Positions 17,129 to 46,869 of a stretch of DNA of 64,000 bases are shown here, piece after piece. A program made the translations under genes and the position numbers. This DNA is from an uncultured Poribacteria bacterium (GTDB lineage Bacteria; Poribacteria; WGA-4E; WGA-3G). The stretch is from contig OX638316.1 of NCBI GenBank assembly GCA_951812525.1, forward strand, positions 2,328,630 through 2,392,629, read 5' to 3'. The notes under the pieces were generated by a model that was not told the DNA's origin, made no database searches, and saw only the letters and a program-made list of their open reading frames with translations. Position 1 is the first letter of the stretch. The number at the start of each line of letters is the position of its first letter.

Positions 17129-17878
17129 ATGCAAACAAAGCGTATCTGCCTCTGGTCTGGTCCCCGCAACGTCTCCACGGCACTCATGTACGCCTTCGCG
17201 CAGCGCAGCGATACCCAAGCCCTTGACGAACCCCTCTATGCCCATTATCTCTATAATACGAACAGAGCCGCAGCGCATCCCGGTATCGCGGCGGTCATGG
17301 CATCTATGTCAACAGACGCAGAACAAGTGGTCCGGGAGGTGATCCTCGGTCCTTGCGAGAAACCTGTGCTTTTCATGAAACAGATGGCGCACCACCTTAT
17401 CAACATCGACCGAAGTTTCCTCCAGCAGACCCTCAATGTATTCCTCATCCGCGACCCGCGAGAGATGCTACCTTCCCTCACAAATATCATCGGAAAACCC
17501 ACCTTAGCTGACACTGGATTTAAGACGCAGCACGATCTCCTCATTGATTTGCGTGCCGCAGGGCAATCGCCACCGATCCTTGACGCGCGGCTCCTGTTGG
17601 AGAATCCGTCGGGTGTTCTTCACGAATTGTGCGAACGGTTGGGGCTGCCGTTTGAAACGACGATGCTCTCTTGGGAGGCGGGCGGAAACCCTGCCGACGG
17701 TGTGTGGGCAAGATATTGGTATCAAAATGTGCATCGTAGCACAGGTTTCGCACCGTATCGTCCGAAATCCGAGCCGTTTCCAGTGGAATTGGAGGATATT
17801 TTGGCGGAGTGTTCTGTGTATTACGATGTGCTTCGGAGGGATGCAATCTCTACCGATCCGCCCCCAAAACCTCAATAA
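17129..17878 (+). CDS. sulfotransferase-like P-loop protein
   Basis: 249 residues. The N-terminus KRICLWSGPRNVSTALMYAF matches the 5'-phosphosulfate-binding loop of a sulfotransferase-like family also found fused to plant branched-chain aminotransferase-like proteins. NVFLIRDPREMLPSL resembles the 3'-phosphate-binding motif (RDPR, Ser). It would transfer sulfate from PAPS to an unknown acceptor. It is soluble, with AGGAAATAGGA ahead of ATG 17129. Its 3' end overlaps the convergent UPF0182 gene by 29 bp. Substrate unknown; the fold assignment is fairly sure. Confidence 0.75.
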   Translation: MQTKRICLWSGPRNVSTALMYAFAQRSDTQALDEPLYAHYLYNTNRAAAHPGIAAVMASMSTDAEQVVREVILGPCEKPVLFMKQMAHHLINIDRSFLQQTLNVFLIRDPREMLPSLTNIIGKPTLADTGFKTQHDLLIDLRAAGQSPPILDARLLLENPSGVLHELCERLGLPFETTMLSWEAGGNPADGVWARYWYQNVHRSTGFAPYRPKSEPFPVELEDILAECSVYYDVLRRDAISTDPPPKPQ

Positions 17879-20861
17879 GCCGTTCCAAGATGGCTTCTGC
17901 TTCCGCATCGCTCTTTGCACGGCTTTGACGCAATTGCTCCAATAACTCTGCCGCCGTCGGTGGTGCATCGCCTACAACCTCTGGGACGGTCGCCGGTTGC
18001 CCCAAGAAAAGCACATCTAACGCCTTATCCAACGTCTTCGCCGCGGCGAGTTCACTCGCACCTGCTTTCACGACGACCATCTCTAACTTCGGACGCCGCG
18101 GCTTCGTATCATCACCGTTCCCCTTCTCCGGTTTCTTTGCCTGCAAATAGATTGCCTCAACATAGAAGAGTGCATCTTCAATCGGAATAATCAGCAGATT
18201 CCCGCGGATCACATCGCTCGCCTTCTCCCAACCGACCTGCTGCTGCCCGGTCGCTTTGTTAATGTCCTCCTCAACCTGCGTCGGTCCCGCAACATCCGCA
18301 CCCTCTGGCAACACATAGACGATCCGTTCACCGTAGTTCGGAGGGTCGCATCGCGCCACCATCCACGCCTTCAACCGTTTCTCACGCTTCGGCGGTGTGA
18401 ACGGAATCACATTCACGAATTCTAAGGTATCCTCACCCGGCAACTTCAGCATGGCGTAGTAGGGCATCATCTCCTGATCGGCTTCCGATGAGTAATACGC
18501 CTCTTTCGGAATCAACCACCGATCCCGTCGGTGATAGAAATCCTCAGCCTGCCGATGATAAGCACCATACATCTTCGCTTGGATCCGCGTCAGATAATCG
18601 GGATACCGTAGGTGTGCTTTCAACCCCTGCGGCATCTCCGATACCGATTTAAAGAGATCGGGAAACGCCTTCCGATAGGCACGCATCACGGCTTCGTCGT
18701 CCTTGATGGCATAGAAACTGACTGCACCGGTATACGCATTGACGACAGCGACCCCTGAATTTCGGATGTAGTTGAACTTCTTGAAATCCGGCTCCTCGTA
18801 CAGTTGGGTCTGCGTCATCCGCGCCGTATCGTCAACATAGACTTGGGCGTTCGGGTAGTACCGGCTCGTTACATAGAAGTCGATAACCCACCACAACTCG
18901 CCGTCGCTAATCACAATATATGGGTCGGGATCGTAGTTCAAGAAGGGTGCGATATGTGAGACGCGATCCTTGATGAGCCGATCGCCGCGCCGAGTGCCAA
19001 TCTTCCGGCGGAACATCACACGACTCTCCGGTGTTAGTCGCTCCGAACGCAAGATTCGGAAAAAATCGAACCGAAGCGCAAAACAGAGCCGTCGAAACCA
19101 ACCGCCTAACGGGACACCACCGCCGCCGGTATAGGTGTGGCGTTCCCACGTTTCGGGTGCTTGACGCGCAGCGGCACGTCCTGTCGCCTCATCGGTATTG
19201 CGTTGTGTATTCACAGTATGGTAGGCGAGGTTTCCTAACCTCGCCGCCTTCGCGTCATCAGTGTTGCGCTGTGTATTCACAATAACGTAACTATTCGTCA
19301 TCTCGCCGTAGTAAATTTGCGGACGTTCGACCTTCAGTTCCTCGTATTCGCTGCGGATCGGTGTATCCCCGACCCAGAAATTCGGGAACCCGTCCTCGAT
19401 AAACTCGTTCACCGGCGACACGCAGACACCGTAGCCGTTCGTGTATTGCAGCTTCAGCGGCTCCCAACCGGCGATATCCTCCTCTGGACGCACCTCGCGC
19501 GCCGCAATGAGTACCTGCCGATACTCATCACCTACCCGGTACCTATCGACATCCGTGTATGGATGGAAATCGTAATGCGTCTGGATTTGTGCCTCGCGGA
19601 GTGCTTCGTAAAGCACCCGTCTATCCCAGATCTGGATGTTCTTTTTTATCTCCTCGTTCTCCTGTATCACATCCAGCGTGGCAAGTCCTTTTGTCTGTTC
19701 TTTGGTCGTAATTGTATCGAGTTCAAAGGCGAGGCGCGTCTCGGCGATGTGTCGCTCCAAGTACGGCTCCTCTTTGTCGAGAACATTGATACGCGCATCC
19801 CACAGGTGCAGTCCTAACGGATAGACGTGGATGAGTAGCACGTAACTCAAGCCCCAGACCCCCAACGTCGCATACCACAACAGTCGTTGCCGCAAAAACA
19901 TGTTAAACGCAACGGCGATTGCGATCCCTATCAACACACCACAATAGATCCGTGTCGCACCTCCGAGGTGGAAGTCTACATAGAACAAACCGTGGAGCGA
20001 TGACAGTTCCTGCGTCAATGGGCTTGTATAGACTTTGTTCCAGAGGTTCACATAACTCCGCCACCCAGCGACGAACAGCAACAGCAGCCATAGCACCGAT
20101 CCGTGGAAAATGATGTGCCGTTTAACGCGCTGCATCGTGTGCGCATCGCGACGGTAATAGAAGTTGTAGAGCATCCCGACGACGAGACACGTCACCCACA
20201 GCGTTATTTGCACCCAGAGACTCACCCATCGATGGAGCGGAAAACTAAAGAGATAGAAATTCCTGTCCATTCCGAAGTGCATAGATTCTTCTGGTTGGCT
20301 ATCAGTTATCGGTTGTCGGCTATCGGCTGTTGGTTGGTCGCTGACTGCTGACTGCTGACTGCTGACTGCTGTTGGCTGATTCTGATACCGGAGGTACACA
20401 TCGTCCAACAGGAGCATCGGCATCGCGAGTAGGAGTGCCGCAACCAGTGTCAAGTAGAAGACGGTGCGATGGAAAGAAAACGTCTGCGTGTGTGTCCAGC
20501 GTCGGAACTCGCGAGATTCCGGACACAACATGTTCGCGATGGCGGCGTTCGCACTCATGAATCCAAGGGCGACGAGGAAGCAGACACCGAAAATACTCCA
20601 CCGTATCTGCTGGAGTCCCCAGAATACATCTGAGTGTCCGAGGCTCTCGAACCAGAGATGCTCTGTATAGAGGTACGCCAGCGGCATGAAACTGCTCACG
20701 GCGATAAGCGCGCTGAGTATCCAGAGCAGGGATGCCTGAAGTTTGAACGCCTGTCTCCGGCGTTGTCGGCTCCGGCGGTACCGGAAAACGCCCCATATTA
20801 AGGTAACCGCGCTGAGAAACGCGCTCAAAAGGAGTTGTGCGATCGCGAGGTTCGCTGTCAT
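17850..20861 (-). CDS. UPF0182 family integral membrane protein with in-frame repeat insertions
   Basis: 1,003-residue protein. The N-terminal third has about seven membrane helices (LLLSAFLSAVTLIWGVFRYR; LLWILSALIAVSSFMPLAYL). The extracytoplasmic part carries UPF0182 motifs: YTEHLWFESLGHSDVFW, TNGYGVCVSPVNEF, IYYGEMTNSYVIVNT, LAFELDTI, ALFYVEAIYLQ. The family's role is unknown. Two segments foreign to the family lie in frame: a Ser/Gln/Ala-rich stretch (about residues 160-190) from a GCTGAC repeat, and a 22-residue duplication carrying a GTAG palindrome. An extended -10 (TGCTATAAT) lies upstream at about 20895-20903. Confidence 0.93.
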   Translation of the reverse strand: MTANLAIAQLLLSAFLSAVTLIWGVFRYRRSRQRRRQAFKLQASLLWILSALIAVSSFMPLAYLYTEHLWFESLGHSDVFWGLQQIRWSIFGVCFLVALGFMSANAAIANMLCPESREFRRWTHTQTFSFHRTVFYLTLVAALLLAMPMLLLDDVYLRYQNQPTAVSSQQSAVSDQPTADSRQPITDSQPEESMHFGMDRNFYLFSFPLHRWVSLWVQITLWVTCLVVGMLYNFYYRRDAHTMQRVKRHIIFHGSVLWLLLLFVAGWRSYVNLWNKVYTSPLTQELSSLHGLFYVDFHLGGATRIYCGVLIGIAIAVAFNMFLRQRLLWYATLGVWGLSYVLLIHVYPLGLHLWDARINVLDKEEPYLERHIAETRLAFELDTITTKEQTKGLATLDVIQENEEIKKNIQIWDRRVLYEALREAQIQTHYDFHPYTDVDRYRVGDEYRQVLIAAREVRPEEDIAGWEPLKLQYTNGYGVCVSPVNEFIEDGFPNFWVGDTPIRSEYEELKVERPQIYYGEMTNSYVIVNTQRNTDDAKAARLGNLAYHTVNTQRNTDEATGRAAARQAPETWERHTYTGGGGVPLGGWFRRLCFALRFDFFRILRSERLTPESRVMFRRKIGTRRGDRLIKDRVSHIAPFLNYDPDPYIVISDGELWWVIDFYVTSRYYPNAQVYVDDTARMTQTQLYEEPDFKKFNYIRNSGVAVVNAYTGAVSFYAIKDDEAVMRAYRKAFPDLFKSVSEMPQGLKAHLRYPDYLTRIQAKMYGAYHRQAEDFYHRRDRWLIPKEAYYSSEADQEMMPYYAMLKLPGEDTLEFVNVIPFTPPKREKRLKAWMVARCDPPNYGERIVYVLPEGADVAGPTQVEEDINKATGQQQVGWEKASDVIRGNLLIIPIEDALFYVEAIYLQAKKPEKGNGDDTKPRRPKLEMVVVKAGASELAAAKTLDKALDVLFLGQPATVPEVVGDAPPTAAELLEQLRQSRAKSDAEAEAILERLIEVLGADR
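19189..19281. repeat. GTAG palindrome inside the UPF0182 gene, flanked by a 27-bp duplication
   Basis: Two 27-bp copies (19189-19215 and 19255-19281, three mismatches) flank a GTAG-headed hairpin (19221-19245: stem GGCGAGGTT/AACCTCGCC, loop TCCT). The period is 66 bp, exactly 22 codons, so the frame is kept; the protein gains VNTQRNTD twice with KAARLGNLAYHT between. Confidence 0.9.
20290..20385. repeat. GCTGAC-type low-complexity repeat inside the UPF0182 gene
   Basis: Four tandem CTGACTG units, flanked by GGCTATCAG/GGTTGTCGGCTATCGG motifs, encode a Ser/Gln/Ala/Asp-rich loop. Relatives of this repeat lie between genes at about 13080, 14406, 16978, 20930, 35430, 36160, 52420, 52530 and 55740. 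Confidence 0.75.
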
Positions 20862-27801: not shown

Positions 27802-28215
27802 TTAGACCCCTTTTTGGCTTTCTACATATTGCTTTAGAGTTTCAAGTGTAACGCTGCCCACACTTGCCACAAGCTTACCTCTTGTCCATAGACACGGTAA
27901 TTTTCGCTTAAGAACAGGGAACTCATCACGAAGTATCTTCGCAGTATATCCTTTAATTTTGTGAATAATGCTTGTAACAGAAACATCAGGCGGAATGCTC
28001 ACAAGTAGGTGGATGTGGTCTGGCATGCTCTCGACTTCGCGAACAATGTATCCATATCCCTCTTGTCGGTCAATAATCAAGGCTTTGAGTCTCGCTTGGA
28101 TTTCTTGGGATAAGGCAGAACGCCTATATTTCACGCACCAGATGATGTGATACTCACAAGCATATACAGTTGTTTCGGTTGAAATATATTTGTGGTCTCT
28201 ATTTTCAATTCTCAT
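27802..28215 (-). CDS. tnpA: IS200/IS605-family TnpA (Y1 HUH transposase)
   Basis: 137 residues from ATG 28215. HUH motif is MPDHIHLLVSIPP; the catalytic tyrosine is in LETLKQYVESQK; the fold signature YHIIWCVKYRR opens the protein. It cuts and rejoins single-stranded DNA to move the element. Residues upstream of this ATG in the same frame are AT-rich and overlap a consensus promoter, so the longer start at 28263 is unlikely. It lies 440 bp from the broken lamin-tail gene and may have caused its truncation. No tnpB is adjacent on the other strand. Confidence 0.93.
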   Translation of the reverse strand: MRIENRDHKYISTETTVYACEYHIIWCVKYRRSALSQEIQARLKALIIDRQEGYGYIVREVESMPDHIHLLVSIPPDVSVTSIIHKIKGYTAKILRDEFPVLKRKLPCLWTRGKLVASVGSVTLETLKQYVESQKGV

Positions 28216-28221
28216 ATAGAT

Positions 28222-28250
28222 ATTATACCATAAAACATAGTTTATTTCAA
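28222..28250 (-). promoter_or_regulatory. promoter of tnpA, likely giving a leaderless mRNA
   Basis: Minus strand: TTGAAA (28250-28245), 17 bp, TATAAT (28227-28222). The -10 ends seven nt before the tnpA ATG, so transcription should begin at or next to the A of ATG. The AT-rich 28251-28656 region holds no other gene. Confidence 0.75.
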
Positions 28251-28656
28251 ATAAAAATAACAAAAAAAGTATTTTATCTCTTACATTAGTATAATTGCAA
28301 AAGCCGAAAATGGCGAAACCTTCGACTTTGAAAATCCGGCTTTTAACTTCACTGATCTTTCCTTTTTGATTATACCCATCAAGAATAACATTACTATATT
28401 ATTGTAAGGTAACATCCTCATTAGGCGATTTTTCCATTTCCTCTTTTTTCCATAAAAAGATAGATAAGTGTTTCTTTGTTTTCTACCTTCTTCTGTTCTC
28501 CGTTCCCAGTAACTAGTGGGACCCTTTGTATAAAAAACGAATAAATAATTTATATTTAACATAATAATATATTTTGGAATTAGACATAGCAGGCAAAAGG
28601 CAACCATTTTTTATGAGCGATTTTCCTCCCACCCTAAAGGATGGGAGAAAACCGAA

Positions 28657-40528: not shown

Positions 40529-40553
40529 GTAGGCGAGGTTTGCAACCTCGCCG
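40529..40553. repeat. solitary GTAG palindrome
   Basis: GTAG followed by GCGAGGTT/AACCTCGC, 12 bp after the stop codon, ahead of the terminator. Confidence 0.8.
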
Positions 40554-40573
40554 GACCTCTCTTAGATAACACG

Positions 40574-40606
40574 AAAGGCGCGGTTTTCGGACCGCGCCTT
40601 TTTTTC
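40574..40606 (+). terminator. Rho-independent terminator after the 1,336-residue gene
   Basis: Stem AAAGGCGCGGT/ACCGCGCCTTT, loop TTTCGG, seven-T run. Confidence 0.93.
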
Positions 40607-40650
40607 TCTACCCTTGTATTCCCGGTTTCCTCGGTATTCCCGGTTTCCCC

Positions 40651-41160
40651 GGTAGGCACGGTTTCCCAACCGTGCCGGTCATCTCTCTCAAACCCATCAA
40701 CCCCGGTAGGCACGGTTTTGCGGCGTACTCGACCAAATGCGACCTGCATTCCTAACCGTGCCGATCTTCTTTCTCAAACTGATCATCCTCGGTAGGCACG
40801 GTTTCCTAACCGTGCCGGTCATCTCTCTCAAACCCATCAACCCCGGTAGGCACGGTTTCCTAACCGTGCCGGTCATCTCTCTCAAACTGATCATCCTCGG
40901 TAGGCACGGTTTTGCGGCGTACTCGACCCGGTTCATGCCCCGGTGAAGTCCACACGGACTTCATACCGTTGATTCTGAATGCCATAAGGCATTCATACCC
41001 GGTGAAGTCCACACGGACTTCATACCGTTGATTCTGATTCATGCGACCTGCATTCCCAACCGTGCCGTTCATCTTTCTCAAAGCCATCATCCCCGGTAGG
41101 CACGGTTTTGCGGCGTACTCGACCAAATGCGACCTGCATTCCCAACCGTGCCGGTTTCAG
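40651..41160. repeat. GTAG palindrome array 1, with nested insertions
   Basis: Six units about 54 bp apart: GGTAGGCACGGTT, loop TCCT or TCCC, AACCGTGCC, then a GGTCATCTCTCTCAAAC spacer. Units 1, 3 and 4 are clean. Units 2 (40705-40763), 5 (40899-41067) and 6 (41095-41153) are split at the loop by the same sequence (TTGCGGCGTACTCGACC ... ATGCGACCTGCATT). In unit 5 that insert is itself split by about 110 bp holding two GAAGTCC/GGACTTC hairpins and one GAATGCC/GGCATTC hairpin. Confidence 0.92.
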
Positions 41161-41225
41161 TATCTCCAGAAATCTGTTTGATTTTCAAATGTTAGATAGG
41201 TTAAAATAATAGAAACCGCGGTTAG

Positions 41226-41345
41226 ACCCGGTGCGGTTAGGAAACCGCACCTACCGTATGTGGGAATTTGAATATAATCCCGGTGCGGCATGTAAAGCTA
41301 AGACAAATTATGCTTTCGTAGCATAATTTGGAAACCGCACCTACC
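41226..41345. repeat. GGTGCGG palindromes, one split by a hairpin insert
   Basis: 41229-41258 is an intact GGTGCGGTTAGGAAACCGCACC palindrome written here as stem GGTGCGGTT. At 41279-41345 the same palindrome is split by CATGTAAAGCTAAGAC plus a hairpin AAATTATGCT/AGCATAATTT. An identical split copy is at 42409-42474. Confidence 0.85.
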
Positions 41346-41382
41346 GTTAAAATAATTCAAAGCGCAACCGAAAATATAAAAT

Positions 41383-41856
41383 ATGAAATATCGAAATCAC
41401 GATCTACGTAAAGGCAGAGTCTCAATACCGGGAGCATATTATCATATTATTATCAACACACACCAGCGACAGCAGCTTCTCGCGAATGACGGGGTTGCAT
41501 CAATTATCTTTGAAACATTTGCTTGGTTAGAAGCCAAACACCGGCTCAGATGGATCTGTATTATGATTATGCCTGACCATGTGCATACAATCATTGAACT
41601 TGGTGCTGGGCAGACTCTCGCCAAGGTTATGCATTCGCTGAAATTATTTACAGCACGCAAAATCAATGAACGCTTATCACGGGATGGGACTTTCTGGCAG
41701 CACGGTTATAGCGATTGGGCGATTCGTACCGAAGAGACATTAAACAACACCATTCGTTATTGTTATGCGAATCCGGTGAAAGAAGGTATAGTAAAATCAG
41801 CTCAGGATTATCCGTATTGGCGGTGCAAATTTGACATGGTAGGAGAGGTTTCCTAA
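41383..41856 (+). CDS. REP-associated tyrosine transposase (RAYT, Y1 family)
   Basis: 157 residues from ATG 41383. The HUH motif is MPDHVHTIIELG; the catalytic tyrosine is in TIRYCYANPVKEGIV; the N-terminus (RVSIPGAYYHIIINTHQR) and the WQHGYSDWAIR region are those of RAYTs. In other bacteria RAYTs process REP hairpins with a GTAG/GTGG head. Here GTAG palindromes flank both sides, and the stop codon TAA itself lies in a palindrome (GGTTTCCTAACC). No Shine-Dalgarno site is seen. It is probably the mobiliser of this window's GTAG palindromes. Confidence 0.92.
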   Translation: MKYRNHDLRKGRVSIPGAYYHIIINTHQRQQLLANDGVASIIFETFAWLEAKHRLRWICIMIMPDHVHTIIELGAGQTLAKVMHSLKLFTARKINERLSRDGTFWQHGYSDWAIRTEETLNNTIRYCYANPVKEGIVKSAQDYPYWRCKFDMVGEVS

Positions 41857-42067
41857 CCGTGTCGGACCCATCAACCCCGGTAGGCACGGTTTCCTCGGTA
41901 GGCACGGTTTCCTCGGTAGGCACGGTTTCCTCGGTAGGCACGGTTTCCCAACCGTGCCGTTCATCTTTCTCAAACCCATCTTCCCCGGTAGGCACGGTTT
42001 CCTAACCGTGCCGGTCATCTCTCTCGAACTCATCAGCCTTGGTAGTCCTGGTTTCCTAACCGTGCCG
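41841..42067. repeat. GTAG palindrome array 2
   Basis: Begins inside the RAYT 3' end. An 18-bp half-unit (GGTAGGCACGGTTTCCTC) is repeated three times from 41879, followed by complete palindromes at 41933-41959, 41987-42013 and 42041-42067, with the same CATCTCTCTC-type spacers as array 1. Confidence 0.92.
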
Positions 42068-42143
42068 TTTTCAGTATTTCCAGAAATCTGTTTGATTTTC
42101 AAATATTAGGTGGGTTAAAATAATAGAAACCGCGGTTAGTCCG

Positions 42144-42390
42144 TCACGGTTAGGAAACCGTGCTTACCGTGTGTGGTATTGTTAGCTGCCCGTCACGGTT
42201 AGGAAACCGTGTTTACCGTGTGAGGTATTGTTAGTTAGTCCGTCACGGTTAGGAAACCGTGCTTACCGTGTGTGGCATTGTTAGCTGCCCGTCACGGTTA
42301 GGAAACCGTGTTTACCGTGTGAGGTATTGTTAGTTAGCCCGTCACGGTTAGGAAACCGTGCCTACCGAGGAAACCGTGCTTACCGGTGTG
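42144..42390. repeat. GTAG palindrome array 3, opposite orientation
   Basis: Five units at about 50-bp period (starts 42144, 42194, 42244, 42293, 42343), each CACGGTTAGGAAACCGTG then CTTACC or TTTACC and a GTGTGGTATTGTTAG spacer. Two spacer types alternate, indicating duplication of a two-unit block. Confidence 0.92.
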
Positions 42391-46389: not shown

Positions 46390-46869
46390 TCATTCTTCAG
46401 ATAATGGATCCGAAACCGGGTCAAAAACATACTTCATATCATACGCAATTCCAAAACGCTCCAAAAACGCAAGATACTCGTCCCGAAACGTCCGACGCGA
46501 ATGATGCGCTTCCTGATTTTCAATATATGTGGCTACCTCGGCTATCTGAGAATGTGAATAGCTGAACGCACCAAACCCCTCTTGCCATGAAAATTGCCCT
46601 GTAGTCCAACGCTTCTGACTGATAAAACGTGTCGAATTTACCTTGATGTCTTTTACTAAACTGGACAGTGCCACGTTTGGGGTCATGCCTATCAGAATGT
46701 GGATATGGTCGGGCATTGAATTGATTTGAATCAATTTTTGTCCCTTATTGGTGATAATGCCGGTGATGTATTTGTGGAGTTCTGGCTTGTGAAGTTTAGG
46801 AATGAGTGCTTGTCTGCCTTTCACAGAAAACACAATGTGTACGTAGAGTTGGGTATAGGTATCTGCCAT
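46390..46869 (-). CDS. Y1 (HUH) transposase next to the family-2 array
   Basis: 159 residues from ATG 46869, GAGGAT five nt upstream. HUH motif is MPDHIHILIGMTP; the catalytic tyrosine is in VATYIENQEAHHSRRTF. The start (YTQLYVHIVFSVKGRQALIP) matches a common IS200-like group often annotated simply as transposase. Palindromes of one family lie on both sides (45.04-46.38 and 46.97-47.13 kb), so this protein is the natural candidate for mobilising them, in parallel with the RAYT and its GTAG palindromes. Ends of a conventional IS are not evident. Confidence 0.92.
   Translation of the reverse strand: MADTYTQLYVHIVFSVKGRQALIPKLHKPELHKYITGIITNKGQKLIQINSMPDHIHILIGMTPNVALSSLVKDIKVNSTRFISQKRWTTGQFSWQEGFGAFSYSHSQIAEVATYIENQEAHHSRRTFRDEYLAFLERFGIAYDMKYVFDPVSDPLSEE

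Follow-up and report, generated by a model that had tools for sequence, protein, structure and literature searches.

The window analysed here is a stretch of 64,000 nucleotides from the genome of a sponge symbiont, Candidatus Poribacteria. It contains a gene for a UPF0182 membrane protein of 1003 amino acids, the reading frame of which is open from end to end. The protein matches positions 4-761 of the 770 in the PF03699 profile (577 bits), which covers most of its length, and a homologue was present in all 40 relatives searched. Inside this gene a REP palindrome lies between two direct copies of native coding sequence. A REP-associated tyrosine transposase (RAYT), which is probably the mobiliser of this REP family, is encoded in the same window but is physically separate from the duplication. 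The coordinates of these features are shown in Table 1.

Table 1. Features of the duplicated locus and of the REP system in the window
Feature	Positions	Strand	Basis
UPF0182 (PF03699) membrane protein gene, host of the duplication	17850-20861	-	PF03699, E = 6.8e-173, residues 47-871
Leading unit on the coding strand, 62 nt, with native codons GEMTNSYVIVNTQRNTDDAK and 1 nt lost close to its end	19247-19308	-	Unit A aligned with unit B and L087
Second unit, 67 nt, REP sequence replaces its first 27 nt (net +4 nt)	19180-19246	-	Unit alignment
Flank copy 1, encodes VNTQRNTDDAK	19247-19281	-	Copy comparison
Flank copy 2, encodes VNTQRNTDEATG	19180-19215	-	4 of 30 nt differ from copy 1, all at third codon positions
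REP-derived tract, 31 nt, CGGCGAGGTTAGGAAACCTCGCCTACCATAC, in register with native CGGCGAGATGACGAACGACTACGTTAT	19216-19246	-	Unit and window-score alignment
REP palindrome GTAGGCGAGGTTTCCTAACCTCGCC, 9-bp perfect stem, TCCT loop	19221-19245	+	Pattern search, folding
REP-associated tyrosine transposase (RAYT)	41383-41856	+	NF047646, E = 1.9e-37, 128 bits against a cut-off of 80
REPtron: REP array around the RAYT, in which REPs and adjoining DNA are repeated together	40529-42365		Pattern search and repeat units

Over 40 nt the direct copies (19184-19223 and 19250-19289) share 83% identity, and their period is 66 nt. An earlier note on this DNA had described 27-bp copies on either side of a GTAG palindrome; the positions and the palindrome are as it gave them, but the copies (19189-19215 and 19255-19281) are imperfect, with 3 mismatches in 27. 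The flanking direct-repeat score at this site is 22.5, and scores of 12 or more occurred at only 8 of 1000 random positions. Folded as single-stranded DNA the palindrome gives -10.9 kcal/mol (z = -4.6), and no hairpin was obtained on folding the native stretch, the sister version of the REP tract. The flank copies were considered as a dispersed repeat and rejected as such, since their only matches elsewhere were local or orthologous.

The closest homologues come from the sister species represented by L086 and L087, for which nt identity across the gene is 87.4% and 88.1%, respectively. Each carries a single flank copy without the palindrome, and its stretch at this point measures 107 nt as against 173 nt in the window, a difference of 66 bp (22 codons). 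Both the in-frame net addition and the predicted empty allele, with one copy and no palindrome, are confirmed by these two sequences. L087 has VIVNTQRNTDDATGRADARQAPETW at the position of VIVNTQRNTDDAKAARLGNLAYHTVNTQRNTDEATGRAAARQAPETW in the window, and the sister site reads TTCACAATAAC-GTAG-TCG, its GTAG falling exactly where that of the REP falls. Three more distant homologues (L088, L089 and L090) likewise encode VNTQRN or VNSQRN once and lack the palindrome. As the sister and the more distant species are all single-copy and palindrome-free, the addition is specific to the lineage of the window, in a comparison based on one genome per species.

The extent of the repeat can be seen when the coding strands are aligned. 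The window carries CGGCGAGATGACGAATAGTTACGTTAT-TGTG...GCGAAGG followed directly by CGGCGAGGTTAGGAAACCTCGCCTACCATAC-TGTG...GCGACAGG, and L087 has a single unit of 63 nt (21 codons), CGGCGAGATGACGAACGACTACGTTAT-TGTG...GCTACAGG. The second window unit aligns with the L087 unit throughout, REP tract included, with a single 4-nt gap, and the repeat is therefore the whole 63-bp unit and reaches beyond the 27-bp flank. The features expected of an in-frame tandem duplication are present: adjacent units that align end to end, relatives with a single unit and a length that is a multiple of three. The net +66 bp is accounted for by 63 bp of duplication, 4 bp gained in the REP tract and 1 bp deleted at the junction. 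CGGCGAG and CTAC (= GTAG) are kept between the REP tract and the native codons, with one 4-bp gap. Aligned in register with the 27 native nt of L087, the REP tract reaches a score of 19, which only 5 of 172,226 non-REP genomic windows equal (2.9e-5), and for the L086 version 27 windows do as well (1.6e-4), in a test that was made post hoc, after the alignment had been noticed, and that rests mainly on 7 + 4 matching bases. Of the two origins that had been offered for the flanks, the tandem-duplication scar is the better description, since the repeat spans a 63-67-bp unit that includes the palindrome, and the target duplication was not supported. An element that makes target duplications should be unrelated to the local sequence and should have made duplications at its other insertions; here part of the element aligns with native sequence in register (again post hoc), and no insertion-linked duplication was seen at the other palindromes among 289 sites.

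Of the 10 third positions compared between the flank copies, 4 differ, and the first and second positions are all identical; third-position divergence over the whole gene is 27-29% between the window and L087/L086. As the divergence of the copies is on a par with that of the species, the duplication and the species split are of about the same age. The third-position states GAT and GCG are common to both flank copies and absent from the sisters compared, which places the duplication after the split, but early. Differences confined to third positions would fit continued selection on the amino acids and the frame. The REP is still a perfect 25-nt match, and an intact REP beside old flank copies weakly suggests that it is younger than the duplication, an order of events that the earlier note had listed as counting against its reading. 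From the divergence rates, the chance of an unchanged REP is estimated at ~0.4-3% if all 25 sites were free to vary and at 17-31% if third positions alone were; the REP could instead have stayed intact through conversion between REPs.

The duplicated segment sits in a hypervariable, hydrophilic linker of the UPF0182 protein (linker 2), the length of which ranges from 28 to 73 aa among the tabulated homologues, and it is this floppy location that allowed the frame to stay open. In-frame tandem duplications without a palindrome are found in linker 2 of congeners (42 bp in L103, 39 bp in L102 and 27 bp in L104 and L107). Linker 1 of the same protein carries an in-frame REP-like palindrome (e.g. 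EPVRLETAPT) in at least five species (L087, L088, L089, L090 and L117), about 450-640 nt into the gene, and in L088 it is doubled; these translated REPs appear to be older than the species that carry them. A separate 48-bp tandem REP pair is present at L092:6500-6600. Linker 1 of the window (20290-20400) encodes AVSSQQSAVSDQPTADSRQPITDSQ, the source of which is apparently another short repeat family, and L086 has GAAGCCCACACGGGCTTCATACCGTTGATTC in its place, so that several repeat families enter linker 1 in frame.

The strict REP pattern was matched 101 times in 5.06 Mb and the reversed control pattern not once. The element in the UPF0182 gene has GTAG at one end of a palindrome in the 20-40 bp range, and REPs at other sites of the genome match all 25 nt of it, the loop among them; the preferred neighbours of these REPs are a G before and a G after. 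The view that it is a REP-type repeat is supported by the copy number, the GTAG end and the presence of the RAYT in a REP array. The REPs are mostly extragenic, with 2 of 106 in ORFs of at least 150 codons (one of them doubtful), although ORFs make up about 88% of the region. Because REPs avoid genes, this intragenic copy is exceptional for the genome, and the claim that it shows how the palindromes spread into genes was too general, as it is the sole case among 106 palindromes of one inside a long, well-supported gene. Several REP loops in the array around the RAYT are interrupted by other repeats (GCGGCGTACTCGACC..., GAATGCC...ATACCGTTGATTC), as is also seen in L290. Besides the RAYT gene, and distinct from it, the window has two Y1 transposase genes of the IS200/IS605 type, at 27802-28263 and 46390-46869.

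Flanking direct repeats were detected at 13 of 100 strict REPs, compared to 0.8% of random sites. A genome-wide reading of these as target duplications was rejected, as on inspection the repeat units contain the REPs (arrays), which is tandem duplication. Among the 289 sites, the repeated flanks lie in REP-containing units at all except the target and L045. In this genome, units that contain a REP are commonly found duplicated in tandem at one place (L167, L155, L153, L144, L040 and the array in the window), and one such duplication, with a period of 42 (L241/L270), is polymorphic between the close species G041 and G040. L045 was rejected as a second flank-REP-flank case, since a second REP-like palindrome follows its second flank copy and it therefore looks like a tandem duplication. 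There (L045:1467-1700) a 31-bp duplication surrounds a REP just upstream of the start codon of a small gene and covers its probable ribosome-binding site, and the sisters are single-copy. L290 (G040) was rejected as well, its upstream REP being merely interrupted by another repeat. When G041 and G040 were surveyed for empty sites, many of the compared REPs were at the same site in both genomes; one local tandem gain (L241/L270) and no clean recent REP gain were found, in a survey in which the anchor segments were mostly 91-99% identical and divergence limits the intergenic comparison. Between L223 and L247, from two close species, a 64-bp REP-carrying difference is flanked by an imperfect 10-bp direct repeat.

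The simplest reading, which we consider somewhat probable (roughly 0.55), is that the locus arose by an in-frame 63-bp tandem duplication in the linker, with REP sequence captured in one of the copies. Once the lineage had separated from its nearest sister species, 63 bp (21 codons) of UPF0182 coding sequence would have been duplicated in tandem in frame, and one copy would have acquired the REP palindrome, either later or in the same replication or repair event. REP sequence would thereby have replaced about 27 native nt with 31 nt, most likely through template switching or gene conversion from another REP in the genome, guided by short matches that native and REP sequence already had in common, namely CGGCGAG on one side and CTAC (= GTAG) on the opposite one. 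The loss of 1 nt close to the junction would then bring the net change to +66 bp, and the frame would have been kept open for this reason. The empty site, the two units with their alignment from end to end and the REP identity are observed; we infer the order in which the changes took place and the step of template switching or conversion. Counting against capture, the 5-nt GTATG that separates GTAG from the flank copy matches the native sequence poorly, which is to be expected if it was brought in with the REP, and equally so if a whole REP was inserted. Capture also needs two changes (one if there was a single template-switch event), as against one for an insertion with a 36-bp target duplication.

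Such a one-step insertion, of a ~31-nt REP (GTATG-GTAG-palindrome-G) with ~36 bp of target duplication, could have come about through two staggered nicks or a microhomology-mediated template jump returning upstream. As the chief rival it is possible though on the unlikely side, and it gives the flank-REP-flank layout from one event with little filler; the sisters with one flank copy and no REP, the sister GTAG lying exactly at that of the REP, and the conserved G before and after the REP all suit it. However, it leaves the native likeness of the REP tract (5 of 172,226 windows) as a coincidence, the flank copies are not fresh, and the only other single-REP candidate among the 289 sites, L045, also looks like a tandem duplication. 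To our knowledge, no target duplication this long is made by Y1 enzymes of the IS200/IS605 type. Two events with no connection between them, in which a tolerant linker underwent tandem duplication and an ordinary REP was inserted by chance near the copy junction afterwards, would agree with the palindrome-free duplications in the same linker of congeners and with old flank copies beside a perfect REP. This is improbable, since landing within a few bases of the junction has a chance of ~10-15% by our estimate and the REP would also have to resemble the native codons in register.

The [flank + REP] arrays that are common in this genome bring to mind a REP that came first and was duplicated in tandem together with its flank, one REP later being removed precisely. 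No scar is seen where the two outer junctions align with the sisters, so that the lost REP would have needed exact excision, which makes this sequence of events very improbable. Least credible is that the palindrome was made in place, through hairpin-templated correction of a quasi-palindrome in the duplicated native sequence. Native sequence does already supply one arm (GGCGAG) as well as the CTAC end, but the native stretch does not fold, and self-templating would not yield 25 nt of identity, loop included, with other REPs in the genome.

Seen as duplication with REP capture, the locus has the look of an ordinary tandem duplication and not of a footprint left by some unusual transposon, and the locus argues for local duplication and REP capture over a target duplication made by transposition. 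More generally, and as a rather doubtful proposal, REPs may be copied through microhomologies of 4-7 bp, including GTAG, into REP-like sequence, a local duplication of some 36-63 bp being coupled to the copying. If this is true, microhomology copying would be a route of REP dispersal based on replication or repair and not on Y1 cut-and-paste. The locus is a useful test case for REP movement, being datable and having known empty alleles in the sisters, and it shows that translated repeats can accumulate in one and the same gene if it tolerates insertions. Taken alone, a single old event in a single gene leaves the general picture unchanged.

No paper on REPs of Poribacteria was found in the literature. 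In the GTAG superfamily, intragenic REPs have been reported, and it is common for clusters to consist of tandem reiterations of a REP together with a variable length of adjoining DNA (PMC3733652). The REPs described here resemble the GTAG-tagged REPs of that work in the GTAG end, the palindrome of 20-40 bp, the ~100 copies, the mostly extragenic location and the RAYT gene in a REP array; they differ in that the host is Candidatus Poribacteria, which is not mentioned there, and in that a REP lies within a frame-keeping duplication of native codons (PMC3733652). The RAYT amid REPs of the same GTAG type is as in REPtrons and TnpAREP systems (PMC8266576, PMC2817692), although there is no sign here of the enzyme having made the locus. 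A role for it may still be envisaged, because the mechanism of REP dissemination is stated as not understood (PMC8266576). Rickettsia palindromic elements (RPE) are likewise palindromic repeats that lie within genes, in frame and in tolerated regions, but some carry CGTC and not GTAG (PMC3733652), and in the Poribacteria genome intragenic copies are a rare exception. The closeness to short in-frame tandem duplications in disordered linkers lies in the length being a multiple of 3, the variable linker and the palindrome-free cases in congeners, and the difference is that one unit here carries a REP.
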